The translations under genes were made by a program, and so were the position numbers. Positions 9,459 to 63,719 of a stretch of 64,000 nt of DNA are shown piece by piece. Under the pieces are notes generated by a model. The model made no database searches, had not been told where the DNA came from, and worked only from the letters and a program-made list of their open reading frames with translations. The DNA is taken from the NCBI GenBank assembly GCA_937974565.1, contig CALJWL010000016.1:1-64000 (forward strand). The letters run 5' to 3'. Within the stretch, counting starts at the first letter, position 1. Each line of letters opens with the position of its first letter. Origin of the DNA: an uncultured Arenicella sp. Lineage in GTDB: Bacteria > Pseudomonadota > Gammaproteobacteria > Arenicellales > Arenicellaceae.

Positions 9459-9502
9459 TTTGCAGTATTGACCTTTAGGGCTTGGCTTGCTGGTAATGAA
9501 AA

Positions 9503-9528
9503 TTGCTTGATCCTTTTGCTTGATCCTT
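9503..9528. repeat. 13-bp perfect tandem duplication
   Basis: TTGCTTGATCCTT occurs twice without spacing (9503-9515 and 9516-9528). The second copy overlaps the ancestral stop codon of the HAD pseudogene. Probably replication slippage. Confidence 0.9.
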
Positions 9529-10656: not shown

Positions 10657-13600
10657 CTATATAGGTTTAACAACAAACAATAAGTCACCCGCATTAACTT
10701 GAGCGCCGTTTGCCTGATTGATGCGAATCACTTCGTAACTGTTCTCGGCGGTGAACACCTCGCCAGAACCTGGAACACTGGACAATGAAATGTGCGTAAA
10801 CAGTTTCATTGCTTCAACCTGACACAACGTTTGGCTGAGGTTTACTTTATCGCCCACCTCAACGAAATTTGGCTCGCTTGGTGTTGGCGTTGAATAATAG
10901 ATGCCAGTCATCGGTGAGATAACTTTAATCTCTTCGGTGCCTGCAATCTTCAGGCTTGCCAAATCGCTGTCGTTTTTTTCTACGCCGGTGTAGGCCATTT
11001 CTTCGACCACCTCATCCTTATCGAGAGTGTCTAAAAATGAGGGCAGATACCCCGTGTCATACTCACCTTTGACGAAGGTTTTATCGTTAAGAATTCGCTT
11101 GAGTAAAGAGATATTGGTACACACGCCTTTGATTGTGGTCTGATCCAAGGCGGCAATTAACTTCTTAATCGCGTCTTTACGATCTTTGCCATAAACAATC
11201 AATTGCGCAATCATGCTGTCGTAAAAAGGTGAGATGGTTTTACCTTCTGCCACGGATGCAATGACTTCAATATGATTGCCTTCTGGGAATTGGCACTCGG
11301 TTACCAAACCAGGCGTTGGTAAGAAATCGATGGTTCCATCGGTATCCAGCCTCGCTTTCTCGGCAGTAATACGAGCCTCAATCGAGAAACCTTTGCTTTT
11401 TGGTTTGATGTCGGCGATGGAGCCGCCTTCGGCAATTTCATATTGCTTACCGACAATATTCACGCCTGATGTCCATTCGGTTACCGGGTGTTCAACCTGC
11501 AGGCGGGTGTTCATTTCCATAAAATAGATGGCGTCTGATTTTAGGTCATAAATAAACTCAACCGTCCCCGCACCGAAATAGTCAACCGCGTTGGCTAAGC
11601 GTTCTGCACACTCATACGCTTGCTTCTCGAGCTTTTTGGGCAGCATGGTAGAGCCGGATTCTTCGAGTACTTTTTGATTGTTTCGTTGTACTGTGCAATC
11701 ACGCAAGCCAAGAATGCGAGTGTTTTCATGGGCATCGCGCAGAATTTGCACCTCGATATGGCGCATCGACTCGACAAACTTTTCAAGATAGAGATCGCCA
11801 TTACCAAAGGCACTGCGTGCTTCGCTGTAAACATTGTTGAAGGCGTCTTTGATTTCCGTTGCGCTGCGAACCACTTTAATGCCTTTACCGCCACCGCCAT
11901 GCACCGCTTTCAGCAATACCGGATAACCTATTTCGTCGGCCACTTTCGCCGTGGCCTCCGCGCTGGTTAAAATGCCGTGCGAGCCCGGCACTACGGGCAC
12001 CTTATTTTCCATGGCTGTGTTGATGGCGTTTGACTTGTTGCCCATGGTGTCCATGCTGCTGGCTTTGGGGCCCACAAAATTCAACCCATTGGCACGACAC
12101 AGGCGAGCGAAACCCGCATTTTCAGATAAGAAGCCAATCCCAGGATGCAACGCTGTAACGCCTCGGTTTTTTGCAATGGTAACCACTGATAAGCCATTTA
12201 GGTAGCTCTCGCCAGGCGTTTGCCCACCAAGACAAACCACTTCATCCTGCTCGGTGAGCATATCGCACGCGACCGAGCCCATGTCAGGGTCGGACTGCAC
12301 AAGTAATACCTTATGACCTTGGGCTTGCGCCACGCGAATTAATTTAACCGCGGTGCAGCCGCGGGCATGGATCAATACGGTGTCTATCTTGCCCATGCGA
12401 TCAATGGCTCGATATATCTTGTGTTTACGGTCGGTCTCTTCAACACTGGCGATGCCCGAAATTACTTTATCCACCACTTCGCCTATGGTTTGTTCCGGTA
12501 GACTGATATTTGGGTCTACTTCACGCAGTTTGTCGTCAAGGCCTTCGGCAAACGGGTGTGCCACCAAGCCTTGCATAGCGCCTGGGGTGTTCACCAAATA
12601 ATTAGAAGTGGTCGCCATTGAAGGTAGGAATGAGGGAACAACCACACGACCGGCAAACGGCATGTCTGTGCCGCTAAAATAATAAGTATGAACCAAAGGG
12701 TGAGTCACGAAGCTGGCTTGTGAGCCGCCGGTGCAGTCACCGAAGCCAAAAACAACAATCGGTAAACCGGTTTCGGCTATAAAGTTGGTAATGCGGTCAT
12801 TTACGATTGCCATTGAGAACAATGAACTAGGGCCTTCTTTGGTTTGCATGCCTCCAGAGGACACAAAACACACAATCGGCAAGCCTTGATCTGCGCAGTC
12901 AATTAATAGGCTGCAGAGCTTTTCAGCGCCTGCCATATCAAAGGCACCGGCTTGAAACGCAACGTTTGAAATCAACGCGCCGACTTTGGCTGTTTTTCCG
13001 CCTTCAAGTTTGAGTTCGCCAATGCCAGTAACCACACCGCAAGGAGTGATGTTGTTGTTAAGTGATTTTTCGATTGACTGCCTAAATCCAGGAAACTGTA
13101 CTGGGTTGGCTGTCATTTTATTGGCGTTGGTTTCTGTGAAATCGGCAAATAACGTTGTTTTAAATGCGTCTACGGTGGCCAGTTTTTGTCGTTTATAAGA
13201 TGTCAATACACGTTGAATCAATAGGTCCTTATAGGCAATATCTAATTGATTCCAAAAATCTTTACGCTTGCCAATACGCCACGGGTTAATTTGACCATTG
13301 TAACTTTTTCCACTCATTTGTGAGTCTATGAATCTGGGAACCAGAGTTTCGAAAAAGTACGTAATCAGTACCAATAAAGAATCCGACATTCTTGGAAAGT
13401 TAACGCGTTTCCATTCTTCCACATCGGATAAAAACGCGCCACGTTGATCGTACTTCACAAAATGATTTAACCACTTTGCGAATTCGGACTTAATATCACT
13501 GTCGACCACGTTGTTGTTCATTGAACCGCCAACACTGTTGGCCACTTTTTCAAGCGATGTATCTAGTATTCGTTTTAGAGTGTCTTGCGATAGAGACTGA

Positions 13601-15222
13601 AAAGCCTGCGACTCTTCAGCAATTTCGCCAAAGTTATCAACAATATTGTTATACAGCGCATCGAACACTAAAATGTCGCGAAACTGGTCTTGCATGACCT
13701 CTTTCAGGCTGGGTTCAATCAACGTATCCAATAATGTTAAGTCAGACTCGTTTTTGTCTATAAAACTCGGGCTGTCTTTATCGATGTCATCAAGCTTAGA
13801 GTTCATCTCGATGAAGTTGAATGACGCATCGGACTTCCAGCGATTGTATAAATACAAGCATAATACAAAACAATAATTTTTTTGGGCACTGCGATAATTC
13901 GTGCGCGGGTCACCCAAAATAAGTGCGGTGATTTTACTTCTGTCGTTGCTTAATTCTTCGTGCTTTTGGCGAAGATTGCTCCAAGCCTTTGAAAGTTGAT
14001 CGTTGTAGACCAGCTTCTCAGGGTCAGATAACCATCGACTGAACGCCACCTTACGCATTTGTTGATTTCGAGTATCCAAATCGCCTGTTGGTATCTCTTC
14101 TTCTGCTAAACGCCCGTAGGTTTCCACTGTTTCAGAATGAATACGGCAACGCATAGACAGTGACCGCAGATATTGCATTGCGTGAGAGTACACACTTGGG
14201 AATTCACTTAGTTCGCCGTAGAGTTCAAAGTGGGCGGCTTTTTGTAAGTCACTAAACGCTTGCTTGTGCAGTTTCTCCGTGCGGACGTTATTCACATAGT
14301 CTGCCGCCACTAATGGGTTTTCTAAGACTTCTCTTTTGGCATCCACTTCTATTTCTTGAATGCCAGTAAAGATAGCAGCCACCAAATTGGCGGTGTCCTC
14401 AGACTTTGCTTGCGGAGTCCAATCAATGACGCCGTCAATGGCGCCACTACGATAAAGCTCAGACGGTGAAACCCCAACGTAACGCGCACTTTCTTGCCAA
14501 GACAAGTTGTATTGACGTGCGATGTTAGCTAGGCCCTTGGGTTGAATGGTGTTAAAGGCCGCATCTTTAACGGAAAGCAGTAAGTTGGTCGTTGCCAATG
14601 GAATGGCGCCACCTGAATAACCGAGTCCAAAGATAATGCCGAGGGTGGGCACTTTGACGGCCGCCATTACGGCGATTAATCGCGAAATCGTGTGCGCTTG
14701 ATTAGCGGCATTTGCCTCTGTACCAGCATCTGCACCAGGCGTGTCCATGAATGTGATGATGGGCACGGCGCGAGCAGAATATTCGGTGGCAAGTCGACAG
14801 GCTTCCAAATGATGCTCTGGGCTCCATACGCCGTTAGCCACATTACGGTTTTGCACGATAAAAGCCAAGCGACGAGTTTCATTGTTGTACTCTAGTGAAA
14901 GTTCTACGCTGTAAAGTGGCCCTAACTCAAATTCGCTGTGTATTTTGCCGCGAAGTTTGCTTACCACAGACTTTGCATCAGGGCGAGTGGCCGATTCGGC
15001 GCCATCAAGCACTTGGGCTACATAGTCGTCAACCGCCAATTTTTTAAGACGTTGGCGGATCTGTTCAACTTGTTTAACAGGAATCAACCCATCAATCTTT
15101 TGATGCCATTTGAAGGGGTGTTTGTTGCCGTTAAGTGATAGGTTGTTGGCTCTGCGTTCGACGTCAGCAAACAAGCTAGTGGTAATGCCGTCTGGCGTAA
15201 TTATTTGGTTTTTAGTATTCAA
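10657..15222 (-). CDS. Single-chain acetyl/acyl-CoA carboxylase (CTa-CTb-BC-BCCP)
   Basis: A 1521-residue biotin-dependent carboxylase that would make malonyl-CoA (or another carboxyacyl-CoA) from one polypeptide. Order: carboxyltransferase-alpha-like (about 60-290, with GLGYSGGAIPLA near 200); a helical linker of nearly 400 residues without recognisable domain (about 290-690); carboxyltransferase-beta-like (about 710-955, oxyanion segment VSSGGM, M792); biotin carboxylase (about 935-1405, ATP-grasp loop GGGGKG at 1109-1114 and EMNTRLQVEHPVTEW); and biotin carrier domain (about 1440-1521, VEAMK with the biotinylated lysine at K1473). The CT-alpha-before-CT-beta and CT-before-BC order differs from eukaryotic ACC (BC-BCCP-CT) and from the separate AccA/B/C/D of most bacteria. 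Proteins of this architecture occur, as I recall, in some marine gammaproteobacteria. Natural acyl-CoA substrate cannot be read from sequence. Confidence 0.9.
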   Translation of the reverse strand: MNTKNQIITPDGITTSLFADVERRANNLSLNGNKHPFKWHQKIDGLIPVKQVEQIRQRLKKLAVDDYVAQVLDGAESATRPDAKSVVSKLRGKIHSEFELGPLYSVELSLEYNNETRRLAFIVQNRNVANGVWSPEHHLEACRLATEYSARAVPIITFMDTPGADAGTEANAANQAHTISRLIAVMAAVKVPTLGIIFGLGYSGGAIPLATTNLLLSVKDAAFNTIQPKGLANIARQYNLSWQESARYVGVSPSELYRSGAIDGVIDWTPQAKSEDTANLVAAIFTGIQEIEVDAKREVLENPLVAADYVNNVRTEKLHKQAFSDLQKAAHFELYGELSEFPSVYSHAMQYLRSLSMRCRIHSETVETYGRLAEEEIPTGDLDTRNQQMRKVAFSRWLSDPEKLVYNDQLSKAWSNLRQKHEELSNDRSKITALILGDPRTNYRSAQKNYCFVLCLYLYNRWKSDASFNFIEMNSKLDDIDKDSPSFIDKNESDLTLLDTLIEPSLKEVMQDQFRDILVFDALYNNIVDNFGEIAEESQAFQSLSQDTLKRILDTSLEKVANSVGGSMNNNVVDSDIKSEFAKWLNHFVKYDQRGAFLSDVEEWKRVNFPRMSDSLLVLITYFFETLVPRFIDSQMSGKSYNGQINPWRIGKRKDFWNQLDIAYKDLLIQRVLTSYKRQKLATVDAFKTTLFADFTETNANKMTANPVQFPGFRQSIEKSLNNNITPCGVVTGIGELKLEGGKTAKVGALISNVAFQAGAFDMAGAEKLCSLLIDCADQGLPIVCFVSSGGMQTKEGPSSLFSMAIVNDRITNFIAETGLPIVVFGFGDCTGGSQASFVTHPLVHTYYFSGTDMPFAGRVVVPSFLPSMATTSNYLVNTPGAMQGLVAHPFAEGLDDKLREVDPNISLPEQTIGEVVDKVISGIASVEETDRKHKIYRAIDRMGKIDTVLIHARGCTAVKLIRVAQAQGHKVLLVQSDPDMGSVACDMLTEQDEVVCLGGQTPGESYLNGLSVVTIAKNRGVTALHPGIGFLSENAGFARLCRANGLNFVGPKASSMDTMGNKSNAINTAMENKVPVVPGSHGILTSAEATAKVADEIGYPVLLKAVHGGGGKGIKVVRSATEIKDAFNNVYSEARSAFGNGDLYLEKFVESMRHIEVQILRDAHENTRILGLRDCTVQRNNQKVLEESGSTMLPKKLEKQAYECAERLANAVDYFGAGTVEFIYDLKSDAIYFMEMNTRLQVEHPVTEWTSGVNIVGKQYEIAEGGSIADIKPKSKGFSIEARITAEKARLDTDGTIDFLPTPGLVTECQFPEGNHIEVIASVAEGKTISPFYDSMIAQLIVYGKDRKDAIKKLIAALDQTTIKGVCTNISLLKRILNDKTFVKGEYDTGYLPSFLDTLDKDEVVEEMAYTGVEKNDSDLASLKIAGTEEIKVISPMTGIYYSTPTPSEPNFVEVGDKVNLSQTLCQVEAMKLFTHISLSSVPGSGEVFTAENSYEVIRINQANGAQVNAGDLLFVVKPI

Positions 15223-50151: not shown

Positions 50152-51573
50152 ATGAGTGATATTAATCTAGCTAATCGTAAAAACAAGAAGCTAACTCAAG
50201 AGAAAGCACTTCAAGTAAATTTAAACAGCCAAATTTACGGCGCCATTGTTGAAATTGGCGCGGGTCAAGAAACCGCGCGGCAGTTTTTTTCAGCCGGTGC
50301 CGCAGCGGGTACCGTGGCTAAAACCATGTCGGCTTATGACATGCAAGTCAGTGATGATGTTTACGGTAAGGCCGGGCGTTACGTAAGCCGCGAACGCTGT
50401 GAGCAAATGTTACGTCATGAGTATGATCTGATGCACAACCGCTTGAGTGAATCACGTGGGCAAGAGAGCAGTTTCTTTGCTTATGCCGCCACCGTAACGG
50501 CTCGCAGTTATACCCAAAAGAATGAGTGTCATGGTTGGATTGGTGTGCGTCGACAATTAAAACCCAATGCCGAGCCCAGTGAAATTATTCTGCACGTGCG
50601 CATGCTCGACGACACTAACATTGAGCAGTCAGAAGCGTTGGGTATTCTTGGGGTTAATTTGGTGCATGGCGCTTACTATCATGCCGACGACCCGAAGACG
50701 ATTATTGATAATTTACAAGATGGGATGGGCTACGATAAGCGTATTGAGATCGACCTAATTCATTTCAGTGGACCGGATTTTTCTGACGTCGAAAACCGCT
50801 TAATGAATTTGCATTTGATCCACAGTTGGTCGTGTCGCGCGGTTATGTTTGGTGCCGATGGACACTCCATTGTTCCGGCATCGGCTTTGCGTAAAAAAGA
50901 CACGGTAGTCATCCGAGGCTCTTTTAAACCGCCAACAAAAATTCATATGGATATGAAAGAGGTGGCGATTAAACAGTTTGCCAAAGAAGAAGGCGTGGAC
51001 CCAGATAACGTGCTTGCGGTGGCTGAAATCACTATGAACGAACTAAGCGGTCAGGGTGAAGAAGCGGACAGTGACTTTTTGGCGCGAGTGGACCTGCTTA
51101 ATGAACTGGGGTTCTCGGTGCTGATATCCGACTATTTACGCTTTTTTAGACTGCGTTCTTGGATCCGACGGTATACAAAAAATCGCATTGGTATCGTGCT
51201 AAGCGTACTCGACTTTGATTACCTTTTTGCTGAGCAGTACTACGATGGCTTAGAGGGTGGAATCCTTGAAGCGTTTGGTAAATTGTTCTCTGATAACACC
51301 AACGTTTATGTTTACCCGACCATCCGAAACGGAAAGTTAATTACATTGGAAAATGCGGATGTGGCCGATGAGTTGTCTTACCTACTGCAACATCTTATCC
51401 ATAACCGTGCAATGGTTACCGCGGAAATAAAAGATGTGGCAAATTTAACGATCTCAGCTCGTGAAATAGTCAAGCAAATACCTCTTGGGCGAGGGGATTG
51501 GGAGAAATCACTGCCGGTTCAAACCGCGGAACAAATTATTGAACGCAAACTTTTTGGTTATCCAGGCGATTAG
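50152..51573 (+). CDS. Conserved uncharacterised cytosolic protein (473 aa)
   Basis: Recognisable as a widely distributed family, found also in Bacteroidetes and cyanobacteria as I recall, with IYGAIVEIGAGQETARQFFSAGAAAGTVAKTMSAYD near the N-terminus (conserved IYG..EIGAGQE.AR.FF). It has no signal peptide and no beta-barrel features, so the database label TonB-dependent receptor that such proteins sometimes carry is not supported. No catalytic motif recognised. The region 225-250 (HSWSCRAVMFGADG) and 365-400 (FDYLFAEQYYDGLEGG) look conserved. It starts 7 bp after ispF. Confidence 0.7.
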   Translation: MSDINLANRKNKKLTQEKALQVNLNSQIYGAIVEIGAGQETARQFFSAGAAAGTVAKTMSAYDMQVSDDVYGKAGRYVSRERCEQMLRHEYDLMHNRLSESRGQESSFFAYAATVTARSYTQKNECHGWIGVRRQLKPNAEPSEIILHVRMLDDTNIEQSEALGILGVNLVHGAYYHADDPKTIIDNLQDGMGYDKRIEIDLIHFSGPDFSDVENRLMNLHLIHSWSCRAVMFGADGHSIVPASALRKKDTVVIRGSFKPPTKIHMDMKEVAIKQFAKEEGVDPDNVLAVAEITMNELSGQGEEADSDFLARVDLLNELGFSVLISDYLRFFRLRSWIRRYTKNRIGIVLSVLDFDYLFAEQYYDGLEGGILEAFGKLFSDNTNVYVYPTIRNGKLITLENADVADELSYLLQHLIHNRAMVTAEIKDVANLTISAREIVKQIPLGRGDWEKSLPVQTAEQIIERKLFGYPGD

Positions 51574-52847: not shown

Positions 52848-55736
52848 ATGTCACCGCTATTAAAAAGGATCAGCGCTTCTCCTTATCTACTGCGATTGTT
52901 ACGTGACCTTCGTGACTGTGAATTATCTGATGCCGCCTTACCCGAAGTGAAAGAAGGCCGTACTCAGTTGTTAGAAGATAAGTTGGAGTCCCTTATTAAC
53001 GAGGGCCGGCGCACGGAGTTACCTCAAAGATTAAAATCGATTATTGCTTCATTGCAGCCGGGCCAAATAGAAAGTGCTGCCTTGGCTGAGCAAGCGTTAA
53101 TATCCGCAAAACAAACGTTCGCATTGCACTGGTGTTTCGCTGAATTGTTAGAAGTGGGTTGCCAACGGCAGCGGGGGCAATGGCAAACCGAATTTGCCGA
53201 AGCCACAATTCATTTTGCATTAAGTGTGGCTTGGCGAAGCCTCTCCAAGAAGAATAAAAACGTTGCTTTGGCGCTTGAAGCTAACAATGGGGTCATGCCA
53301 GGCCTCTTTGTTTTTGGTATGGGTAAATTAGGGGGGTACGATCTAAACTTCTCCAGCGACGTGGACTTGGTTGCTTACTTTGACCCATTAATGTTACCTG
53401 TTCCTGATGCGGTTGGTAAAAGCTACGTGTGCCATCAGGCTTTGCAAGAGATGACGCGCTTGTTAGGCCAGTCCGGTAACGCTAATTTTATCTGGCGAGT
53501 GGACTGGCGTCTTCGCCCCAATGCGTCAGCAACCAGTTTGGCAATGTCCACCGTTGCTGCGCAAGATTATTATCATTACCGTGCGTCGCCTTGGCACCGA
53601 CTGGCATTAATGAAAGCCAGAGTCGTTGCAGGTGATGTTGAGTTGGGGAACGCATTTTTAGCCAGTTTAGACTCGTTTATTTGGCGCCAAAACTTAGACT
53701 TTAGAGCGTTGGATGAATTAGCCGAAATTAAGCAGCGTATTAATTTAGAACACCCTGGCCTAAGAGTGCAGCGCACGTGGGTCGAGCCCATTGGCGAGCA
53801 AGTGGAAGGGTTTAATTTAAAACTCGGCAGTGGCGGGATCCGTGAAATAGAGTTTTTCGTTAACGCCCAGCAATTGCTGCTGGGTGGCCGGCGTTCAGTG
53901 TTGCGAACTCCCAACACCGTAGATGCGCTTGCGGAACTAAAAAACCAAGGTCGATTGGGCGCAACGCAAGCTGAGCGGCTTACCAAAGCGTATCAATTTT
54001 TACGCCGCATAGAAAACGCGGTGCAAATTCACTCGAATCAACAGACCCATTTGTTGCCCATGAGCGATGCCAAGAAAACCGACATCTTGTTGCTGCTGAA
54101 AATTGATTCATGGTCCAGTTTGGTTGAGCAGTTAAATCAAACGCGCGCTTATGTTAATCAGCTTTTTAGTCGGCTCTTTGCGGAGCAAGAGCGATCCCAG
54201 CTAGGGCCGTTGGTGTGGCCTGAAGACCTTGGTGACGTTGCAGGTGATATTGTTGAAACTTGGGAAAACGGGTTTCAGGTCTATGGAGCCTCAGCAGGGA
54301 CTCGACATAAGTTAAAGCCGTTAGCTCATGCTTTATCGGAGTATCTGTTGGAAACCAACGATCACAGTGGGCCAGATGTGAACGAAGTGGTGGTGAGAAT
54401 ACACAACTTTTTTCGCTCGCTTCCAGCAGGCGAACAATACTTTCGGTTATTAGCCGAGTCTCCCAGTTTATTGCAAAGTATTGTGCCGCCGCTGCTTTAT
54501 TCGCCAGCGATGACCACGTTATTGACGCAATCCCCCCACATTGTCGATTGCTACGTACATGGCGAATGGCGTTACCCTGAGCCATTTGATTCGGCTTATA
54601 TTTTGCAAAGCGACAACTATGGTGAGCAACTTGAACGTCTGCGCCGCTTTGTTAATGAACATCTATATCAGCTCTATCAACAGTTTTTACACAACGACTT
54701 AGCGGTAGACGTGCTACAGGCCGCGTTGACGGAATTAGCTCAACATACCCTTGAGTTAGCGTTACAGGCAGTCACTTTGGACATGGGCTTGTCTGAACCC
54801 CCAGTTACGGTCATTGGCATGGGGAAAATAGCGCTGCGGCGCATGTCTCCGCTGTCGGACCTTGACTTGATTTTTGTCTACGATGCTGAGCAAACGAGCA
54901 TGGAGGTGGCATCACGCTTTGTGAACCGTTTGCAAACGGCTGTTGCGGCGCCAATGAAGGAGGGCATTGTTTATGAACTGGATACACGGCTGCGTCCTTC
55001 AGGTCGTTCTGGGGCCCCTACTGTTAGTATTGAGAGCTTTGAAGCTCATCACGATAAGCGAGCGCGCACTTGGGAACACATCGCATTAATGCCCAGCCGA
55101 ATTGTAGCGGGTCGTCGGCAGGCTGAGCAAAAGCTAAATAGGATAAAACAACGGATCATTACCCGAGAGAGAAGTTTGTCTCAACTTCGGGTGGATGCGC
55201 GAAAAATGTGGTTGAGAATCACCGAGCATCGAGTGGGTGATACGCCATTAAGCAATATGAACAGCAAACTTAGAGTTGGTGGTTTGATGCAAGCTGAGTA
55301 TTTGGCGTCATGTTTGGTGCTAAATTATGGCCCCAAGTTCATTAGCGACAGCGTTGAGTTAGAAGATTTGTTGACGGAATGTCTACCGTACTACGGTTTA
55401 GAAGAGTTACCCGAGGTTATTCAGTTCTGGCGTATACAGCAGCTTTGGGAGCGTTTATTAGGTAAAACTGAACAACCACTTAGCAGTCTGCGAGACAGCT
55501 ATTTTGCAAGCCTGTTGGAACATTCGCGTTGTACGAGCATGGATGAACTTTTAGCGAAAAAGAAACGTTATGTGGACTATGTGGTCATTGGTCTTGAGCG
55601 TTTCTTTGCCGAAGCTCTGGAATTATCAGTAGAAGAAATGGACGACTGGGACGAATCGTCTATCAAGTGGACAGACGCTAACAGGCCTGAGTTAAAAACA
55701 GACCCCATCAATAATAAGATTGCGCAACCATTTTAA
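52848..55736 (+). CDS. glnE: Glutamine synthetase adenylyltransferase/deadenylase
   Basis: Bifunctional enzyme of nitrogen regulation that AMPylates and de-AMPylates glutamine synthetase on signals from PII. Two nucleotidyltransferase domains are visible: GMGKLGGYDLNFSSDVDLVAYF (about 160) and GMGKIALRRMSPLSDLDLIFVY (about 660), the family's G-G-x-D-D pattern; the first is the deadenylase, the second the adenylase. 962 residues against 946 in E. coli. The last 45 bp are shared with the convergent LysR gene. Confidence 0.95.
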   Translation: MSPLLKRISASPYLLRLLRDLRDCELSDAALPEVKEGRTQLLEDKLESLINEGRRTELPQRLKSIIASLQPGQIESAALAEQALISAKQTFALHWCFAELLEVGCQRQRGQWQTEFAEATIHFALSVAWRSLSKKNKNVALALEANNGVMPGLFVFGMGKLGGYDLNFSSDVDLVAYFDPLMLPVPDAVGKSYVCHQALQEMTRLLGQSGNANFIWRVDWRLRPNASATSLAMSTVAAQDYYHYRASPWHRLALMKARVVAGDVELGNAFLASLDSFIWRQNLDFRALDELAEIKQRINLEHPGLRVQRTWVEPIGEQVEGFNLKLGSGGIREIEFFVNAQQLLLGGRRSVLRTPNTVDALAELKNQGRLGATQAERLTKAYQFLRRIENAVQIHSNQQTHLLPMSDAKKTDILLLLKIDSWSSLVEQLNQTRAYVNQLFSRLFAEQERSQLGPLVWPEDLGDVAGDIVETWENGFQVYGASAGTRHKLKPLAHALSEYLLETNDHSGPDVNEVVVRIHNFFRSLPAGEQYFRLLAESPSLLQSIVPPLLYSPAMTTLLTQSPHIVDCYVHGEWRYPEPFDSAYILQSDNYGEQLERLRRFVNEHLYQLYQQFLHNDLAVDVLQAALTELAQHTLELALQAVTLDMGLSEPPVTVIGMGKIALRRMSPLSDLDLIFVYDAEQTSMEVASRFVNRLQTAVAAPMKEGIVYELDTRLRPSGRSGAPTVSIESFEAHHDKRARTWEHIALMPSRIVAGRRQAEQKLNRIKQRIITRERSLSQLRVDARKMWLRITEHRVGDTPLSNMNSKLRVGGLMQAEYLASCLVLNYGPKFISDSVELEDLLTECLPYYGLEELPEVIQFWRIQQLWERLLGKTEQPLSSLRDSYFASLLEHSRCTSMDELLAKKKRYVDYVVIGLERFFAEALELSVEEMDDWDESSIKWTDANRPELKTDPINNKIAQPF

Positions 55737-56600
55737 TGCGGCGTCGTTTTCAGTGTGCTCGTGCCAGTATAAACTGATCGGAAACGGAGCCAAATTAAAC
55801 GGCGCGGCTAAGGACGTAATACCATCGTCGATGAGATTCATGGCCAATAACTTGGGCACCGTTAGCAGTTGATCAGAATGCCGAAGCAGTTCACGTGCGG
55901 CGAAGTAGTTTTGGCATCGGATGTGTGATTTCCGCTCGACGCCCTGCTCTTGAAACAACGTGTCTTCAGCCGTCATACCACTTGGGCGGTTAGAAACCGT
56001 AATGTGAGTGGCTTTCAAGTACTTTTCTTGGCTCAGTTCGTCAGCGTAAGGGTGATTGCTGCGCATTAGTACCATAAAACCAGCCGCGAATATTTCCAAT
56101 CGCTTAACTGGTGGTTTAACAGGAATGGCCACATCAATGGCCACATCGACGTTGCTGGCCGCTAATTCGCGTTCAATATTGGCTCGATCTAATTTAATGC
56201 TCGAAAAGCCGACGTTAGGGGCCCGACGAGCCATTAATTTAGCCAGCTGTGGCAATACGGATGGCTCAAATGCGTGATGCATGCCTATTGTAAAATGGTA
56301 ATCGGAGGTGGCGCTATCAAAGGTACCCCATTGCAGTAGCGCTTGTTGTAGGCGAGTTAAGTTGTCGATAATCGCTGGAGCCATTCTCTGACAAGCCGGG
56401 GTCGGTAACATTTTGTTTTGACTGCGAACAAAGAGTTCATCGTCTAACGCAAAACGTAAACGTTTAACCGCGTGGCTTACGGCCGACGGAGTAAGATGCA
56501 ATAAGTCCGCTGCGCGGGTCATATTTTGTTCGGAATACAACATTTTAAATACTTTAAGAAGATTTAAATCAAGTTGTTGAATGCGTTTGTTATCGGACAT
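55692..56600 (-). CDS. LysR family transcriptional regulator
   Basis: A 302-residue regulator with N-terminal winged helix-turn-helix (FKMLYSEQNMTRAADLLHLTPSAVSHAVKRLR) and a C-terminal effector-binding domain. The ATG at 56600 is preferred to a TTG at 56615. It is divergent from the acyl-CoA catabolic cluster that starts at 56775 and probably controls it. An in-frame 12-bp tandem duplication (56124-56147) lies in the effector domain, giving VDVAIDVAI. Effector unknown. The C-terminus overlaps the glnE 3' end by 45 bp. Confidence 0.9.
   Translation of the reverse strand: MSDNKRIQQLDLNLLKVFKMLYSEQNMTRAADLLHLTPSAVSHAVKRLRFALDDELFVRSQNKMLPTPACQRMAPAIIDNLTRLQQALLQWGTFDSATSDYHFTIGMHHAFEPSVLPQLAKLMARRAPNVGFSSIKLDRANIERELAASNVDVAIDVAIPVKPPVKRLEIFAAGFMVLMRSNHPYADELSQEKYLKATHITVSNRPSGMTAEDTLFQEQGVERKSHIRCQNYFAARELLRHSDQLLTVPKLLAMNLIDDGITSLAAPFNLAPFPISLYWHEHTENDAALKWLRNLIIDGVCF
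56124..56147. repeat. 12-bp tandem duplication in the LysR gene
   Basis: AATGGCCACATC occurs twice head to tail; being in frame it repeats the residues DVAI of the regulator. Confidence 0.85.
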
Positions 56601-56617
56601 AAGTTTGAAAAACAAAA

Positions 56618-56630
56618 TGAATAATATTCA
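56618..56630. promoter_or_regulatory. LysR-type T-N11-A dyad
   Basis: TGAATAATATTCA is a perfect dyad (central A) with the LysR T-N11-A form, 17 bp upstream of the regulator's start. A related half-site occurs near 56652 (TCATTCTATTCATG). The site lies in the shared promoter region with the dehydrogenase gene, as expected for an autoregulated divergent LysR system. Confidence 0.5.
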
Positions 56631-56774
56631 CTGTAAAATATATCATCTTTCATTCTATTCATGCATCTTTGCGTTACTCTAAAAGAATAGACGAGCTATA
56701 AAGTAACGATTGAAACAATTCGTTCAGGCTTTCATCTTCCACTTTTAGCCACCAACACTTTATGGGGACAGGAC

Positions 56775-58007
56775 ATGAATTTTGAACACAGCGCCAAGGC
56801 GCAAGATTACATTCGACGTATGAAAGCGTTTATGTCTGAATACGTCGAACCCGCTGAAGCAAAAATCTATCATGATATGCACGAGATGAACCCTGGTGGT
56901 GATTGGAAAAACTGGAAGCTACATCCGCTGCTTGAACAGTTTAAAAGTATGGCGAAAGAGCAAGGGCTTTGGAATTTGTTTCTTCCCGACACCGACCTTG
57001 GGCAGGGCTTAAGTACGTTAGAGTACGCGCCATTAGCGGAACAAACGGGCCGTATGTTGTTTGCGCCTGAAATATTTAACTGCAATGCGCCGGATACGGG
57101 CAATATGGAAGTGTTGTATCACTTTGGCAGTGATGCGCAAAAAGAGCAATGGCTGAAACCATTGTTGGCTGGGGAAATACGTTCTGTGTTTGGTATGACT
57201 GAACCGAGTGTTGCTTCGTCAGACGCGACTAACATGGCGGCCACTATTGAAGAAGACGGTGACAGCGTCGTGGTTAATGGCCAAAAATGGTGGAGTACGG
57301 GCTTAGGCCACCCAAATGCGAAGTTTACTATTTTCATGGGGGTATCTAATCCTGAGAACGACCGCCACAACAGGCACGCCATGGTCATTGTTCCGTTGGA
57401 TACACCGGGTGTTGAGATCAAGCGTATGTTGCAGGCCTTTGGTGATTACGATGCACCTTATGGCCACGGAGAGATGCATTTCACAAACGTTAGAGTGCCA
57501 AAAGAAAATGTCATTATGGGGATGGGTAAGGGGTTTGCTATCGCGCAAGGTCGCCTTGGTCCAGGTCGAATTCATCATTGCATGCGCACTATTGGGCTTG
57601 CGGAAAAGGCACTTGAATTAGCCATTAAACGGGGCATGCAACGTGTGGCGTTTGGTAAACCAATCATCAAATTGGGCGGCAATCAAGAACGTATTGCTCA
57701 AGCTAGAATTGCCATCGATCAAGCTCGCTTATTAACGCTTAATGCGGCATGGAAAATTGACAGCGTTGGTGTAAAAAATTCAATGACTGAGATATCTGCG
57801 ATTAAAGTAGCGGTTCCGAATATGGCCCAAGAGGTGGTTGATATGGCTATCCAAATGCATGGTGGAGCGGGTATGTGTAATGACTTCCCGTTAGCGCATT
57901 TTGCGGCAGGCGTACGCTCATTGCGATTGGCTGATGGACCTGATGAAGTACATATGGGTATGGTCACACGTTTGGAATTGAAAAAATATATGACACTTGA
58001 GTCTTAA
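56775..58007 (+). CDS. Acyl-CoA dehydrogenase
   Basis: A 410-residue FAD flavoprotein. FGMTEPSVASSDATNM, the QKWWSTG loop, and IQMHGGAGMCNDFPLA in the C-terminal part are characteristic of the acyl-CoA dehydrogenases. Sequence (MRRM, DTPGVEIKRMLQAFG) is close to the ACAD10/ACAD11 branch. GGGGACAGG lies before the ATG. First gene of the LysR-divergent cluster and likely acts on a 4-hydroxyacyl-CoA derivative or another branched acyl-CoA. Confidence 0.88.
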   Translation: MNFEHSAKAQDYIRRMKAFMSEYVEPAEAKIYHDMHEMNPGGDWKNWKLHPLLEQFKSMAKEQGLWNLFLPDTDLGQGLSTLEYAPLAEQTGRMLFAPEIFNCNAPDTGNMEVLYHFGSDAQKEQWLKPLLAGEIRSVFGMTEPSVASSDATNMAATIEEDGDSVVVNGQKWWSTGLGHPNAKFTIFMGVSNPENDRHNRHAMVIVPLDTPGVEIKRMLQAFGDYDAPYGHGEMHFTNVRVPKENVIMGMGKGFAIAQGRLGPGRIHHCMRTIGLAEKALELAIKRGMQRVAFGKPIIKLGGNQERIAQARIAIDQARLLTLNAAWKIDSVGVKNSMTEISAIKVAVPNMAQEVVDMAIQMHGGAGMCNDFPLAHFAAGVRSLRLADGPDEVHMGMVTRLELKKYMTLES

Positions 58008-58150
58008 ATTAAGACAGAATAGCTTTATCGAACACTTTCAATTTTATCTAAGTTGTTTAACGCACCGGCTAGGTGAGACGGTCTGCGAGCCGTTATAGCT
58101 AGGCGCGTAAACAACTAACACTGTCAACGTTAACGGTTGGTTTAAGCACA

Positions 58151-58960
58151 ATGAAAAAGATACTTATTACTGGCGCCGGCTCTGGTTTAGGTCGCGCACT
58201 TGCTTTGCGTTATGCAAGCGGAGGCAGTGAAATTTGCGTTGCTGATGTCAATCAAGAAGGTGGCGAACAGACGGTTCAGATGATCAATGAAAAGGGCGGT
58301 TCTGCGTTTTACATGAGTTGCGATATTACTCAGCAGTGGGATGTCGATAAGTTGGCGATCACACTGGCGGAGCGTTGGGGAGGGGTAGACATGTTGGTTA
58401 ATAACGCTGGCGTGGCAACCGCAGGTCAATTGGAATACGAAAGCATGGAGCAATGGCAGTGGGTGTTGGACATTAATTTAATGGGCCACGTCCGAATGAC
58501 CAAAGGCATGTTGCCATTATTACGTAAGAGTACCAGTGTAGACAAAGACATCATTAACATTGCTTCTCAAGCGGGCATTACTGCAGCGCCGGGTATGGGA
58601 AGCTACTGTGTTTCAAAAGCCGCCATGGTCAGCTTATCCGAAACATTGCATCTAGAGTTGGCGCCCGAAGGCATTCACGTCAGTGTTGTGTGCCCAGCAT
58701 TTTTTGATACCAATTTAAACAAGTCGCTTAGAAGCGGTGATCAGAAAATGCAAAATGTGGTCGATAAAATGATTAAAAAATCCGGCGTGTCGGCTGATTC
58801 AATCGCCGACAAGGTTGTTGCTGGAGTCAACGCACGCAAGTACATGATATTGACCCACAAAGAAGGTATTAAAGCGTATCGTCTAAAGCGGTATTTGCCT
58901 ATTGAGCGCTATTTGAGCATGGTTAAAAAGCGTACCGCTAAATACGTAAAAAAGAGCTAG
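58151..58960 (+). CDS. Short-chain dehydrogenase/reductase
   Basis: A 269-residue classical SDR. Nucleotide motif TGAGSGLG, NNAGVA, and the catalytic YxxxK in YCVSKAAM. Acts on a hydroxy or keto group, probably of an acyl-CoA. Preceded by 143 bp that hold no gene. Likely part of the acyl-CoA cluster, comparable in position to LvaD of Pseudomonas. Confidence 0.85.
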   Translation: MKKILITGAGSGLGRALALRYASGGSEICVADVNQEGGEQTVQMINEKGGSAFYMSCDITQQWDVDKLAITLAERWGGVDMLVNNAGVATAGQLEYESMEQWQWVLDINLMGHVRMTKGMLPLLRKSTSVDKDIINIASQAGITAAPGMGSYCVSKAAMVSLSETLHLELAPEGIHVSVVCPAFFDTNLNKSLRSGDQKMQNVVDKMIKKSGVSADSIADKVVAGVNARKYMILTHKEGIKAYRLKRYLPIERYLSMVKKRTAKYVKKS

Positions 58961-59011
58961 CGACTCTTTCAATTTCATTTACTGGCCCACACCAATTTTA
59001 GAGAAATAACC

Positions 59012-60079
59012 ATGAGTGATGTTAACATTGATGCCGCAGGCAATGTTCGTACTGGGGAGGAGCTGGATTTATCCGCACTCAACCCATGGCTACTTGAGCA
59101 AATTTCAGGAATATCAGGTGTACCCAACGTCACTCAGTATTCTGGCGGTGCCTCGAATTGGACTTATTGTTTGAGTTACCCTGAAAAAGAAGTGGTGTTG
59201 CGCCGAGCCCCTGCGGGTACCAAGGCTAAGGGGGCACATGACATGGGACGTGAGCATCGCTTGCAAGCCGCGCTTAAGCCTGTGTACCCATACGTTCCTG
59301 AAATGCTGGCCTACAGTGATGATGAAGCGCTAATTGGAACCGAATTTTATGTGATGGAAAAGTTGAACGGCTTGATTCCTCGCAAAAACATGCCTCGTGG
59401 GCTAGAGATAACAAAAGAGCAGACACGCAAGCTTTGTACCAATGCAATTGACGGTTTAGTTAAGCTACATTCAGTGGACTATCAAGCTGCTGGCTTAGAT
59501 CATTTAGGCAAAGGGGGCGGGTACACTGAGCGCCAAATTGAAGGTTGGATTCATCGTTATACCAAAGCCAAAACGTGGAATGTGCCCAGTGGCAAAAAAG
59601 TAATGAATTGGTTGTCTGAGAATACGCCAGCCAAAGAAATTATATGCCTCACTCACAATGATTATCGGCTTGATAATCTAGTGTTAGACACAAAAGACCC
59701 TACCCAAATTATTGGTGTACTTGATTGGGAGCTAGCCACATTAGGTGATCCATTGATGGATTTGGGCAACTCACTTGCCTATTGGGTGGAAGCAGGGGAC
59801 GACCGGTTGGCACAAAGCACTCGGCGACAACCTACGCATATGGCGGGCATGATGACGCGCCAAGAAGTGGTTGATTACTATTTGAAAAGAACAAATTTTG
59901 ATGTCGACGATATGCGGTTCTACGAAGTTTATGGTTTGTTTCGTTTAGCGGGTATTGCGCAACAAATTTACTATCGATACCATCATAAGCAAACTGACAA
60001 TCCGGCGTTTAAACATATATGGTTTTTTGTGAACTACCTTTTTTATCGCTGTAAAAAAGTGATCAAGCGAGGTAAATAA
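59012..60079 (+). CDS. Phosphotransferase family, ACAD10/11- and LvaA-like kinase
   Basis: A 355-residue aminoglycoside-phosphotransferase-fold kinase. Motifs: GGASNWTYCL (nucleotide loop), catalytic HNDYRLDNL (Brenner-type HxDxxxxN) and DWELATLGDPLMDLG (metal-binding). The same domain forms the N-terminus of human ACAD10/11 and, as LvaA, phosphorylates 4-hydroxyacyl-CoA in levulinate catabolism; assigned to that branch by context. The gene ends in TAATG with the phosphatase gene. Confidence 0.85.
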   Translation: MSDVNIDAAGNVRTGEELDLSALNPWLLEQISGISGVPNVTQYSGGASNWTYCLSYPEKEVVLRRAPAGTKAKGAHDMGREHRLQAALKPVYPYVPEMLAYSDDEALIGTEFYVMEKLNGLIPRKNMPRGLEITKEQTRKLCTNAIDGLVKLHSVDYQAAGLDHLGKGGGYTERQIEGWIHRYTKAKTWNVPSGKKVMNWLSENTPAKEIICLTHNDYRLDNLVLDTKDPTQIIGVLDWELATLGDPLMDLGNSLAYWVEAGDDRLAQSTRRQPTHMAGMMTRQEVVDYYLKRTNFDVDDMRFYEVYGLFRLAGIAQQIYYRYHHKQTDNPAFKHIWFFVNYLFYRCKKVIKRGK

Positions 60080-60783
60080 TGGCCATTGTTTATTTAATAC
60101 GTCATGGCCAAGCTTCATTTGGTAAAGACAATTACGATGAGCTATCCGAGCTTGGTCAGAGTCAGGCAGCACGCTTGGGAGTTGTGCTAGCTCAGCGCAT
60201 ACCTCAGTTTGATGTAATAACACTGGGCAGTATGTGGCGGCACCAGCAGACGGCTACGCACTGTTTGGCTGAATTTGGTGTGACGTATCAAGATGCACAA
60301 CCTAGAGTAGATGCAGGGTGGAACGAATACGATCACCAAGAAATTTTGCGGGTGTATAGACCTGAGTTTGAGAACGCAACTAAGATGACCGCATTCATTC
60401 GACAACAAGAAAATCCTAAGCGTTTTTTTGAAGCCGAGTTCAATGCGGCTATTAATCGTTGGATTGCCGGCGACAATGACGGTGACTACAGTGAAACTTG
60501 GAGCGATTTTTCCAGGCGTGTCCACGGCGCTTTAGACAAGGTTCTTAGCAATCATTCATCCGCCAAATCTATTGCTGTGTTCACCTCTGGTGGGCCAATT
60601 TCGTTGTTAAGTCAGTCATTACTAGGGGTTCCAGCACAGCACATAATGCGCATGAACTGGACCTTGATGAATTGTGGCGTCACTAAAGTCGTCACGACTG
60701 ACTCACGCAGGTTTATTGCTTCATTGAACGAACACACGCATTTTGAAGGCCCCGATAATAAATGGCTGATTACATACACCTAA
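60079..60783 (+). CDS. Histidine phosphatase family protein
   Basis: A 234-residue phosphoglycerate-mutase-like phosphatase. The phosphohistidine motif is RHGQASFG, with a second His in VFTSGGPISL (the usual SHG/G region). Its ATG overlaps the kinase stop, so kinase and phosphatase are made at linked levels. It could remove the phosphate added by the kinase or process a product. Substrate unknown. Confidence 0.82.
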   Translation: MAIVYLIRHGQASFGKDNYDELSELGQSQAARLGVVLAQRIPQFDVITLGSMWRHQQTATHCLAEFGVTYQDAQPRVDAGWNEYDHQEILRVYRPEFENATKMTAFIRQQENPKRFFEAEFNAAINRWIAGDNDGDYSETWSDFSRRVHGALDKVLSNHSSAKSIAVFTSGGPISLLSQSLLGVPAQHIMRMNWTLMNCGVTKVVTTDSRRFIASLNEHTHFEGPDNKWLITYT

Positions 60784-60864
60784 ACAGCTGGGCAGACACC
60801 CCAATAGCCAAACATTAGACAGCGCTACTAGCGCGGCACTTTATTAAGAAGTGAGGACGAATTT

Positions 60865-61614
60865 ATGAGCAGACAACACATTTTAATCACCGGTGCAAGC
60901 TCAGGATTGGGTTACACCATGGCCAAAATGTACGCCCAACAAGGGAAGAGTTTGGCTTTGTGCGCGCGCCGTACTGAGCGCCTAGAAGAACTTAAGAAAG
61001 AGATTTTGGAGTTAAACCCCAATGCCACTGTCTTTGTTCGCGAGTTAGACGTCAACAACCACGATCAAGTATTTGAGGTGTTCAAGGCATTTATTGATGA
61101 TTTAGGTTACATTGACCGTGTAATTGTAAATGCCGGTATGGGTAAAGGGGCCTCTCTTGGCACGGGATATTTCCATGCAAACAAACAAACGGCGATCACT
61201 AATTTTGTTTCCGCCATTGCGCAATGCGAAGCGGCACTGGAACATTTTCGTGAACAGAACCATGGTCACTTAGTGATGATTTCATCTGTCAGCGCCGTGC
61301 GCGGGTTTCGTCGAGCAATGACGGTTTACGCTGCCACTAAAGCCGCCGTCTCATCTTTAACTGAAGGCATTCGGGTTGATTTATTAAATACCCCGATTAA
61401 AGCCACTACCATTCACCCTGGCTTTATTCGAAGTGAGATCAATGAAAAAGTAAAAGCCGTTCCATTTATGGTAGACACCGAAACCGGTTGTCGTGCCATT
61501 TTAAAAGCCATCGATAAAGAAGGTGCAAATTACTACGTGCCCAGTTGGCCATGGGAAGTCATGGTGCGTGTAATGAGAATTGCGCCATTAAAGTATTTAA
61601 CTAAAATGAGCTAG
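60865..61614 (+). CDS. Short-chain dehydrogenase/reductase
   Basis: A 249-residue SDR with TGASSGLG, NAGMG and YAATKAA (catalytic Tyr/Lys); C-terminus WPWEVMVRVMRIAPLKYL resembles membrane-associated SDRs of lipid metabolism. GAGGA precedes the ATG. Fifth gene of the cluster; may be an alternative to the first SDR for chain-length or stereo-specificity. Confidence 0.85.
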   Translation: MSRQHILITGASSGLGYTMAKMYAQQGKSLALCARRTERLEELKKEILELNPNATVFVRELDVNNHDQVFEVFKAFIDDLGYIDRVIVNAGMGKGASLGTGYFHANKQTAITNFVSAIAQCEAALEHFREQNHGHLVMISSVSAVRGFRRAMTVYAATKAAVSSLTEGIRVDLLNTPIKATTIHPGFIRSEINEKVKAVPFMVDTETGCRAILKAIDKEGANYYVPSWPWEVMVRVMRIAPLKYLTKMS

Positions 61615-61919
61615 ATTTTTACTCGTTAATCAGGCCATCTAAGGTTTAAGAATGGGCGAGCATTGTCTGGGGACTTGTGACAAGAACGGTTAAGCCGACC
61701 TTCCTTGTGTAAAAACACTTTACGCCGATATGGGGGGCACGGGCAGTGCGGATGAGGCATGAGGTAAACCGTTGCAACCCAAGCAAAGGTTGTTTGATTG
61801 CAATTCACATGAGGTTGTGAAAAAGCTTCAAACCGTCAAATACAATTCCATATGACAACCGAGTTAAACTTAAGTGATGTTGTTATTCATTGAATACTTG
61901 TAAATAATGAGGCTGCCTT
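61615..61919. other. 305-bp gap before the second acyl-CoA dehydrogenase
   Basis: A minus-strand 60-codon frame (61626-61808) with a HPHCPCPP patch exists but has no other support. The AT-rich right part (61810-61919) may hold a promoter for the last gene. Nothing else recognised. Confidence 0.4.
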
Positions 61920-63719
61920 ATGTCTACTATTGTTAATCGTCGTGACCTTGATTTTTTGCTCTATGAAACCCTAGGTCTTGACAGTCTGTTAGAGGCCCCG
62001 CGTTTTTCCGATTACGATAAAGACGCCATTGATGCCATTTTTGATTTGTCACAGTCGATTGCTGAAGAGGTGTTTCAGCCATTTGCCGCCCAATTAGATG
62101 ACAATGAACCCAAGTACATCGATGGTAAAGTGGAGATCATTCCGCAGGTTCGAGAAGCCTTAGACGCCTATAAAGAAGCTGGCTTATTTATGACACCTTA
62201 CGATGCTGATATTGGCGGCATGCAATTGCCATGGATGGTGCATCAGGCGCTGAATTCGATGTTCGTGTGTGCGAATACCTCGGTATCAAATTACGCGTTT
62301 CTGACTCAAGGGGCCGCCAATATGCTGCACGCTTGTGGCTCAAAGGAGCTTCAAGATAAGTTTTTGCCTAATATGCTGGCGGGCGAATGGTTTGGCACCA
62401 TGTGTTTATCAGAACCGCAAGCCGGCTCGTCACTGTCGGACATTCGTACCAAAGCGGAAAAATTAGACGATGGACGCTATAAAATCACCGGCACGAAAAT
62501 GTGGATATCGGGCGGAGACCACGAACTAACGGATAATATTATTCACATGGTACTGGCAAAGATTCCTGGGGCGCCACCGGGGGTAAAAGGAATTTCATTA
62601 TTCTTAGTACCTAAGAATAATGTGAATGACGATGGCCGTATTGGCGATTCGAATAACGTCGCACTGGCGGGGCTCAACCATAAAATGGGGCATCGTGGCA
62701 CCACTAACTGCTTATTAAATTTTGGTGAATCAGGCGACACCATTGGCTACTTGGTTGGGGGTGAAAATCAAGGGTTGGCTAATATGTTTCACATGATGAA
62801 CGAAGCACGAATTGGTGTTGGCATGGCCGCCACTGTGATTGCTCTGGGTGGCTATTTATATTCACTGGATTACGCTCGCAATCGCCCTCAAGGCCGCCAC
62901 CTCACAAACAAAGACCCTGAAACACCGATGGTGATGATCTCTGAACACGCGGATGTCAAACGCTTATTGATGACCCAGAAGGCCTACGTTGAGGGCGCGT
63001 TGGCGTTAATGTATTACGCCGCCAATCTGTTAGACCAGATTAAGATTTCAGACGACCAACAAGAGAAGAACACACTGAATCTATTGCTTGAATTACTCAC
63101 GCCCATTTGCAAATCATGGCCGTCGGAGTTTTGTTTAGAGGCCAATAAGCACGCTATTCAAATTCTAGGTGGTTATGGTTATACACGTGAATACCCTGTT
63201 GAGCGGCTGTACCGAGATAATCGTTTAAACCACATTCATGAAGGCACGCACGCTATTCATGGTTTAGACATTATGGGGCGTAAGGTGCGTATTGCCGACG
63301 GTGCAGCGCTTAAAGCGTTGGCTGCGCAGGTCATGAGTACCATTGAACAAGCATCACAGTGGGGTGGGCTATCGCAACATGGCCAAGATTTAAGTGCCTC
63401 CTTGAAAGTTGTGCAAACCACGTTAGAATCGGTGAGTAAGGCCAATGACCCATCGCTCGCACTCGCTAATGCCACTCTGTTTTTAGATGCAATGGGGCAC
63501 GTAGTCATTGCTTGGATGTGGTTAAAACAGGCGGTTGCCGCACAAAAAGGGTTAGCCACGGGTATACCCGCAGACAAGGCTTTTTATGAAGGTAAACTGG
63601 CGGCGTGCCAGTTCTTTTATCGTTATGAGTTGCCTAAAGCAATTTGTCAGTTTGAATTAGTAGCAAAAGTGGATGACACTTGCTTTAATCTCACTGCTGA
63701 ACAATTTATCGGGACATAG
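61920..63719 (+). CDS. Acyl-CoA dehydrogenase (long form, FadE type)
   Basis: A 599-residue acyl-CoA dehydrogenase with the family N-terminal helices (1-165), FAD loop CLSEPQAGSSLSDI, ILGGYGYTREYPVERLYRDN and IHEGTHAIHGLDIMGRK containing the acyl-CoA dehydrogenase base region, plus a C-terminal acetyl-CoA-dehydrogenase-like domain (about 470-595). Longer than the 380-410-residue mitochondrial types. GAGG lies before the ATG. Likely handles the longer or bulkier substrate of the cluster. Confidence 0.9.
   Translation: MSTIVNRRDLDFLLYETLGLDSLLEAPRFSDYDKDAIDAIFDLSQSIAEEVFQPFAAQLDDNEPKYIDGKVEIIPQVREALDAYKEAGLFMTPYDADIGGMQLPWMVHQALNSMFVCANTSVSNYAFLTQGAANMLHACGSKELQDKFLPNMLAGEWFGTMCLSEPQAGSSLSDIRTKAEKLDDGRYKITGTKMWISGGDHELTDNIIHMVLAKIPGAPPGVKGISLFLVPKNNVNDDGRIGDSNNVALAGLNHKMGHRGTTNCLLNFGESGDTIGYLVGGENQGLANMFHMMNEARIGVGMAATVIALGGYLYSLDYARNRPQGRHLTNKDPETPMVMISEHADVKRLLMTQKAYVEGALALMYYAANLLDQIKISDDQQEKNTLNLLLELLTPICKSWPSEFCLEANKHAIQILGGYGYTREYPVERLYRDNRLNHIHEGTHAIHGLDIMGRKVRIADGAALKALAAQVMSTIEQASQWGGLSQHGQDLSASLKVVQTTLESVSKANDPSLALANATLFLDAMGHVVIAWMWLKQAVAAQKGLATGIPADKAFYEGKLAACQFFYRYELPKAICQFELVAKVDDTCFNLTAEQFIGT

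Follow-up and report, generated by a model that had tools for sequence, protein, structure and literature searches.

The DNA analysed here is a 64,000-nucleotide stretch (the window) from an uncultured Arenicella sp., contig CALJWL010000016.1, positions 1 to 64,000, and its subject is a gene cluster that probably constitutes a LysR-controlled module feeding 4-hydroxyacyl-CoA and, by way of its short-chain dehydrogenases/reductases (SDRs), also 4-oxoacyl-CoA into beta-oxidation. The core module probably consists of the LysR gene and, divergent from it, the genes for an acyl-CoA dehydrogenase (ACAD) named ACADa, SDR1, an APH-fold kinase, a histidine phosphatase (HP) and SDR2, with a neighbouring dehydrogenase gene, ACADb, lying outside. 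This reading is based on the gene order, the protein families, the signature residues, the co-inheritance of kinase with ACAD, and the recurrent adjacency of HP and kinase. If it is true, the cluster shifts a misplaced hydroxyl on fatty acids so that beta-oxidation can proceed. The breakdown of 4-hydroxy fatty acids was assigned to ACAD10/11 in 2024-2025, according to excerpts of PMC11342911 and PMC12440821.

In the proposed pathway the thioester would be made by a CoA ligase encoded elsewhere in the genome. SDR1 and SDR2 would interconvert 4-oxo- and 4-hydroxyacyl-CoA and possibly invert the 4-hydroxyl to the stereoisomer that the kinase accepts. The APH-fold kinase would then phosphorylate the 4-hydroxyl, and the flavoenzyme ACADa would eliminate the phosphate to yield a 2-enoyl-CoA, whose degradation would be completed by general beta-oxidation. 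HP would guard the 4-phosphoacyl-CoA pool, by hydrolysing intermediate that has stalled or else by keeping the kinase in check.

The kinase and its acyl-CoA dehydrogenase partner

The kinase gene (59012-60079, plus strand; PF01636, E 8.6e-45) encodes a predicted 4-hydroxyacyl-CoA kinase. The catalytic residues of HxDxxxxN and DWE are present, H215, D217, D221, N222 and D238 being invariant in a 9-row alignment. The best sequence matches in the PDB are 9o56 (255 bits, E 1e-74), 3dxp (166 bits) and ACAD11 (160 bits, E 1.1e-45); against these three, in the same order, an LvaA-type kinase, the type of levulinate (Lva) operons, scores 69, 58 and 44. The generic annotations of the cluster (SDR, ACAD) and the label 'aminoglycoside phosphotransferase' of 9o56, which is a database label only, would also fit ordinary fatty-acid oxidation genes that happen to lie with an unrelated kinase for antibiotics or other small molecules. 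That explanation is hardly credible, since the named antibiotic kinases in the PDB reach E 0.009 at best (hygromycin kinase; APH(2'')-Id gives about 0.03) against 1e-45 for ACAD11 and 1e-74 for 9o56, kinase and ACAD types travel together on the trees, and HCMR is missing from the six ACADb-labelled ACADs. The grouping with antibiotic phosphotransferases for which the earlier note had asked the reader to watch is not seen, and the NCBIfam model APH_3p gives the window kinase 36 bits against a cut-off of 205.

ACADa (410 amino acids; 56775-58007, plus strand) is placed among the phospho-type, ACAD10/11-like dehydrogenases by its matches to the PDB and ACAD11, its motifs and its position on the tree. 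It aligns over nearly its full length with PDB 4hr3 (546 bits) and with ACAD11 (449 bits). The segment QGRLGPGRIHHCMR, with the upstream Arg and HCMR, and RLADGPDEVH, in which the catalytic Asp replaces Glu, line up with ACAD11, the stretches HHCMR and LADGPDEVH matching it in the alignment. Excerpts of PMC12440821 tie the upstream Arg, HCMR and Asp residues to 4-phosphoacyl-CoA chemistry and report that ACAD10/11 were inactive on plain acyl-CoAs in the conditions of that study. Searched as a regular expression, strict R-x7-HCMR occurs in 97 of 98 ACADa-labelled, 16 of 19 lvaC-labelled and none of six ACADb-labelled open reading frames (ORFs); DGP[DN]EVH, which tests the surroundings of the Asp more strictly, occurs in 77, 9 and 0 of them, respectively.

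Three sets stand apart in a kinase tree of 85 rows, made by a quick method with no bootstrap on a selected subset of window-type rows and containing two long end branches. The LvaA-type clade (17 rows) has support of 100 in the SH-like approximate likelihood ratio test (SH-aLRT), the ACAD10-type clade (30 rows and 3dxp) has 96 and the window-type clade, of 36 rows and 9o56, has 84. The window kinase lies outside the ACAD10-type clade, which holds 3dxp and a second kinase of its own genome from contig 13, and is related to it as a sister only; the ACAD10 and ACAD11 proteins themselves are not among the rows. The phospho-type ACAD tree, also of 85 rows, admitted only ACADs with HCMR and drew on 33 window-type loci, one of which (L098) yielded none. 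In it, 31 of the 32 rows linked to window-type kinases form one clade with 4hr3 (SH-aLRT 100), parallel to the window-type kinase clade; the sole exception, L153, sits on a long branch. LvaC-type ACADs are a separate clade, again with 100. By these trees the window cluster is a third kinase/ACAD type, nearer to ACAD10/11 than to Lva. The phylogenetic comparison proposed in the earlier note turned out differently for its two references: the Lva-type clades exclude the window kinase and ACAD, and the ACAD10-type clade is the sister of the window-type kinases without including the window kinase.

Because the window-type kinase has its own branch on the tree, the different substrate branch that the earlier note had named as a danger to its reading is possible. 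The kinase and ACADa might act on another hydroxyl position or acyl-CoA class (e.g. 3-hydroxy, 5-hydroxy, branched or cyclic side chains) by the same phosphate-elimination chemistry, and no activation or transport gene ties the cluster to 4-hydroxy acids. Moreover, window-type, ACAD10-type and LvaA-type kinases occur together in one genome (G593), which suggests divided substrates. Nevertheless, the active-site motifs of ACADa are those of ACAD11, whose reported substrates in excerpts of PMC12440821 are 4-phospho-acyl-CoAs, and another substrate is unlikely, though it deserves to be kept in mind.

The window-type kinase is widespread. Among the matches listed for 398 genomes of this phylum, 29 places beyond the window's own show 44-70% identity, and the next ones at most 39%. 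The closest named kinase (75%) comes from an Arenicella metagenome assembly and sits among the window's genus on the tree. In another genus member (L010, G014 contig 73) the kinase orthologue reads with one in-frame TAA and is possibly a pseudogene or an assembly error. Fusions of the kinase with HP or ACAD were sought among the labelled ORFs and none was found; a long kinase frame in G608 (556 amino acids as an ORF, 636 as an open frame) is likely a spurious upstream extension.

A serine-type histidine phosphatase beside the kinase

The earlier note had correctly described a divergent LysR gene, two ACADs, two SDRs and an APH-fold kinase, but had missed the HP gene (60079-60783, plus strand; PF00300, E 8.7e-21) and had counted ACADb in. 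The kinase stop codon and the HP start codon overlap by one nucleotide, the final base of the former, so HP and kinase are probably translationally coupled. The AlphaFold 2 model of HP has the histidine-phosphatase fold (predicted local distance difference test 94), with a best Foldseek E of 1.2e-10 and a VIA Z score of 22.3 to PGAM5 (root mean square deviation 2.4, 175 residues aligned). It shares this fold with histidine phosphatase branch 1 (PhoE, PGAM5, RosC, CobC), as well as the Arg-His of RHG, the second Arg and the Glu, but differs from it in carrying a serine, Ser170, where branch 1 has its second catalytic His. R8, H9, R54, E83 and S170 are invariant over 25 rows and G10 is kept in at least 90%; the first four are presumably the catalytic residues of RHG, the second Arg and the Glu acid/base. 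A weak printed alignment with the phosphoglycerate mutase 3d8h sets S170 against the second His of that enzyme, and in the model S170 comes directly after the expected strand (164-169).

In the column of position 170, covering all 95 HP-labelled ORFs, Ser is found in 82 of 82 complete window-type members, with the truncated HP of L196 left out, and His in 12 of 12 lva-type ones; six plasmid HPs that were read have TSGG or SSGG. An HP query in 15 genomes with a window-type kinase gave exactly one match in 13, including seven where HP lies away from that kinase, with TSGG in 12 and SSGG in one; across 31 genomes, PF00300 has 2-7 matches in each, with some genes counted twice because their match is split. 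Ser-type HP occurs beside kinases of two clades. In an Alteromonas-like genome (L211, G035) the single Ser-type HP is near the ACAD10-type kinase and not the window-type one, as though HP could work with either kinase.

Neighbours were counted within 5 kb of 139 kinases with full flanks: 94 window-type (the phylum sample supplied 25 and the window's genus 5; another 63 are named loci drawn from the best 80 of a scan, and 1 has another origin), 29 ACAD10-type and 16 LvaA-type. These counts are not independent, because the loci are related and partly duplicates, the same genome appearing twice in places. Near the window-type kinases were found window-type HP (65), phospho-ACAD (52), SDR (89) and SCP2-like protein (20), with no LvaB/DUF6285 and no ACADb. 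Near the ACAD10-type kinases there were 5 window-type HPs, 2 lva-type HPs, 19 phospho-ACADs and no LvaB, two of these loci (L211, L212) having been fetched because an HP had been seen nearby. The LvaA-type kinases had LvaB in all 16 cases, lva-type HP in 10, window-type HP in one (L206) and phospho-ACAD in 14. All 75 HP-kinase pairs lying no more than 5 kb apart have both genes on one strand. The farther flanks of the 139 loci, 1.40 Mb in total, contain 2 HP ORFs of either type, and the adjacency of HP and kinase exceeds chance.

By its sequence, then, a Ser-substituted HP recurring beside these kinases is newly recognised here. It may be, although we put this forward tentatively and by analogy, a dedicated governor of bacterial 4-hydroxyacyl-CoA kinases, acting either by holding the kinase back or by removing 4-phosphoacyl-CoA that has stalled; an active phosphatase with an altered pocket is an equally open alternative.

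Gene order, regulation and neighbouring genes

Genus relatives have the full order LysR < > ACAD, SDR1, kinase, HP, SDR2, as do Shewanella, Pyxidicoccus and a Pseudoalteromonas plasmid. In Marinobacter the last place is taken by a different SDR, and Acinetobacter lacks SDR1. In many Pseudomonas species HP, an SCP2-domain protein, the kinase and an SDR are at one site and LysR < > ACADa at another; LysR is divergent from ACADa, though the kinase is elsewhere, in 7 of 8 fetched Pseudomonas stretches. An ACAD homologue (E 1e-90 or better) is almost universal in one Pseudomonas-type genus (193 of 199 genomes). The SCP2-domain protein (about 103 amino acids; Pfam-checked in L141), encoded between HP and kinase in L129, L132, L138 and L141 (about 7400-10050), is a possible acyl-CoA carrier partner, and the gene beside it we take to be of the sohB protease type. 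A plasmid collection gave 235 records with a kinase match. Among the 40 listed, 10 show at least 53% identity, and HP adjoins the kinase in all 10, two of which are chromosome-sized Acinetobacter records and several near relatives. An Ideonella plasmid record holds the whole set except the second SDR, a Streptomyces record ACAD, two SDRs, kinase and HP, and a Deinococcus record ACAD, SDR, kinase and HP. In Sulfitobacter and Caballeronia HP is beside ACAD10-type kinases (clade assigned by hidden Markov model score), and no HP is annotated in the Cytobacillus kinase cluster. The Deinococcus and Cytobacillus kinase clusters (L248, L252) also contain MaoC-type dehydratase genes, which fit a subsequent hydration step.

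SDR1 (58151-58960, plus strand) belongs to the NF004196/PRK05650 family (344 bits, cut-off 297) and SDR2 (60865-61614, plus strand) to NF006099/PRK08251 (391 bits, cut-off 253). In many loci the gene after HP, or after the kinase if there is no HP, is an SDR2 homologue; elsewhere there is another SDR or none. The LysR-family regulator (55692-56615, minus strand; PF00126/PF03466) starts with TTG at 56615 or with an in-frame ATG at 56600, and a LysR-labelled ORF lies within 5 kb of 32 of the 94 window-type kinases. Between LysR and ACADa two blocks, TGAAT-N3-ATTCA (56618-56630) and TTTCATTCTATTCAT (56648-56662), form a candidate LysR operator (56618-56662, no strand): in an alignment of seven intergenic regions of the genus, judged by eye, TGAAT-N3-ATTCA is intact in six (L075 is without the TGAAT half) and TTTCAT-N5-TTCA in six (L073 deviates). 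Predicted promoters and terminators are no commoner in the cluster than in shuffles (13 against 14.3 and 7 against 9.0).

ACADb (61920-63719, plus strand), a 599-residue ACAD with a C-terminal PF12806 domain, an EGT motif and no HCMR, starts 305 bases past SDR2. It is probably a mere neighbour and was rejected as a member of the conserved module: homologues scoring above the limit are absent from the 5 kb around all 94 window-type kinases (no more than 5 of these kinases come from the window's genus) and occur that close to 3 of the 29 ACAD10-type and 1 of the 16 LvaA-type kinases. On the other side, a 962-residue ORF (52848-55736) beside the LysR gene is presumably glnE. Elsewhere in the window, a 1521-residue frame (10657-15222) with carboxyl-transferase and biotin-carboxylase domains is an apparent single-chain acyl-CoA carboxylase, and a 473-residue open frame (50152-51573) has no Pfam match at E 1e-10.

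The genome probably holds a second complete kinase/phospho-ACAD set. Its second kinase, ACAD10-type (L041, 9531-10550, on contig 13 of assembly G000), has genes for an AraC-type regulator and an old-yellow-enzyme-like protein as neighbours; it scores 385 to 3dxp, 283 to ACAD11 and 182 to 9o56; the second phospho-ACAD (L244, 2293-3522, contig 65; 50% identity) has no kinase near.

Several points weigh against a 4-hydroxyacyl-CoA module. The second kinase and phospho-ACAD mean that redundancy could mask the cluster's role. The window-type kinase branch has support of only 84, and the chemistry of its sister clade may not be transferable to it; no assayed member of the window-type kinase clade and no published substrate or phenotype was recognised in the open-licence literature searched, in which a Pseudomonas putida fitness-module paper (PMC10949508) was represented without its gene lists. 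The ACADs encoded next to ACAD10-type kinases do not form a single clade, 5 label changes being needed, and three of them cluster with the second ACAD of the window's genome inside a larger clade that holds the window-type ACADs; with this scatter the pairing of kinase and ACAD is not perfectly congruent. Phospho-ACAD is near only 52 of the 94 window-type kinases, HP is absent near 29, and 2 of the 15 genomes queried (G347 and G323, of a diverged family) gave no HP match at E 1e-8. Finally, the SDRs have about 30% identity to the LvaD-like SDR (SDR1, 30% over 197 amino acids), and neither a ligase nor a transporter in the cluster indicates the substrate.

Comparison with the Lva operon and with ACAD10/ACAD11

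The Lva operon resembles the cluster in its kinase, its ACAD with HCMR and its SDR, and some versions also have a histidine phosphatase. LvaA-type operons were recognised here by gene order (LvaR-like sigma-54 regulator, kinase, ACAD, SDR, CoA ligase, SSF transporter) and not by the published KT2440 sequences, and LvaB was identified by position as DUF6285, with a label model seeded from six of the LvaA-type loci. The small ORF after lvaA is DUF6285/PF19802 in the three scanned, and DUF6285 may be the LvaB family. The cluster could be a divergent levulinate operon that has lost LvaB and uses the phosphatase instead. It has the same enzyme types, an LvaA-type locus (L206) carries a Ser-type HP, and excerpts of PMC6692424 describe a levulinate cluster of Pseudomonas citronellolis LA18 with a histidine phosphatase, suggested to act on 4-phosphovaleryl-CoA, and no lvaB. 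Yet the LvaA- and LvaC-linked rows are separate clades on long branches, with SH-aLRT 100 in both trees, the window kinase and ACAD are 27% and 32% identical to their Lva counterparts, and all three kinase types coexist in G593. An LvaB-like ORF is near 16 of 16 LvaA-type kinases, with or without HP (by the model seeded from six), and near none of the 94 window-type ones, and the usual Lva-operon HP is of another subfamily that keeps the second His. Such an origin is very unlikely, and on these sequence comparisons the window cluster is not an Lva operon. The correspondence to LvaA/LvaC drawn in the earlier note was not borne out, the sigma-54 LvaR, the LvaE ligase and the transporter being absent from the cluster, which has LysR instead; as that note had said, no CoA ligase is among the cluster genes.

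The absence of an LvaB-like helper, also claimed there, stands, a search of the assembly (97.9% complete) having given 0 DUF6285 matches; the likely partner, however, is the HP that the note overlooked. Among 31 genomes searched DUF6285 is present in 8 and was not found in the window's assembly and 22 others; three of the 8 belong to family f13 with a window-type kinase, on another contig than DUF6285. The idea from excerpts of PMC6692424 that HP replaces LvaB was rejected, LvaB-like ORFs being found directly after lvaA in HP-containing operons as well. In six loci (L197, L198, L201, L203, L204 and L187) the LvaB-like ORF lies between LvaA-type kinase and HP in operons resembling that of LA18 (PF19802/DUF6285 scanned in L197). 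Because relatives of the same architecture have the gene, lvaB was possibly overlooked in LA18, whose own sequence was outside the comparison and whose report is cited from excerpts.

The earlier view of kinase and ACAD as the separated form of ACAD10/ACAD11 is upheld as far as homology goes: each matches its half of ACAD11 along almost its entire length, and they keep the phospho-acyl-CoA residues, HCMR and the catalytic Asp. They differ in being separate proteins, under LysR control and with two SDRs, and it is the contig 13 kinase, not the window kinase, that is closer to ACAD11 (283 against 160 bits). The clade positions, for 9o56 with the window-type kinase branch (84; long end branch of 0.89) and for 4hr3, with HHAMR instead of HHCMR, inside the window-type ACAD clade (100), indicate that these are solved structures of this kinase/ACAD type under generic names.

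The histidine-phosphatase fold is not homologous to the HAD fold. As excerpts of PMC11342911 describe it, the kinase of ACAD10 is joined to a HAD domain, of phosphatase fold, that lacks one Asp of DxD, shows negligible activity as a phosphatase and holds the kinase in check. Both this domain and the window HP have a phosphatase fold altered at a catalytic residue and are paired with a related kinase, and the HP might tentatively be regarded as a convergent, non-homologous counterpart of the HAD domain. The purpose of ACAD10's degenerate domain is a question that the bacterial set, with its different altered phosphatase fold, would make testable with small soluble proteins.

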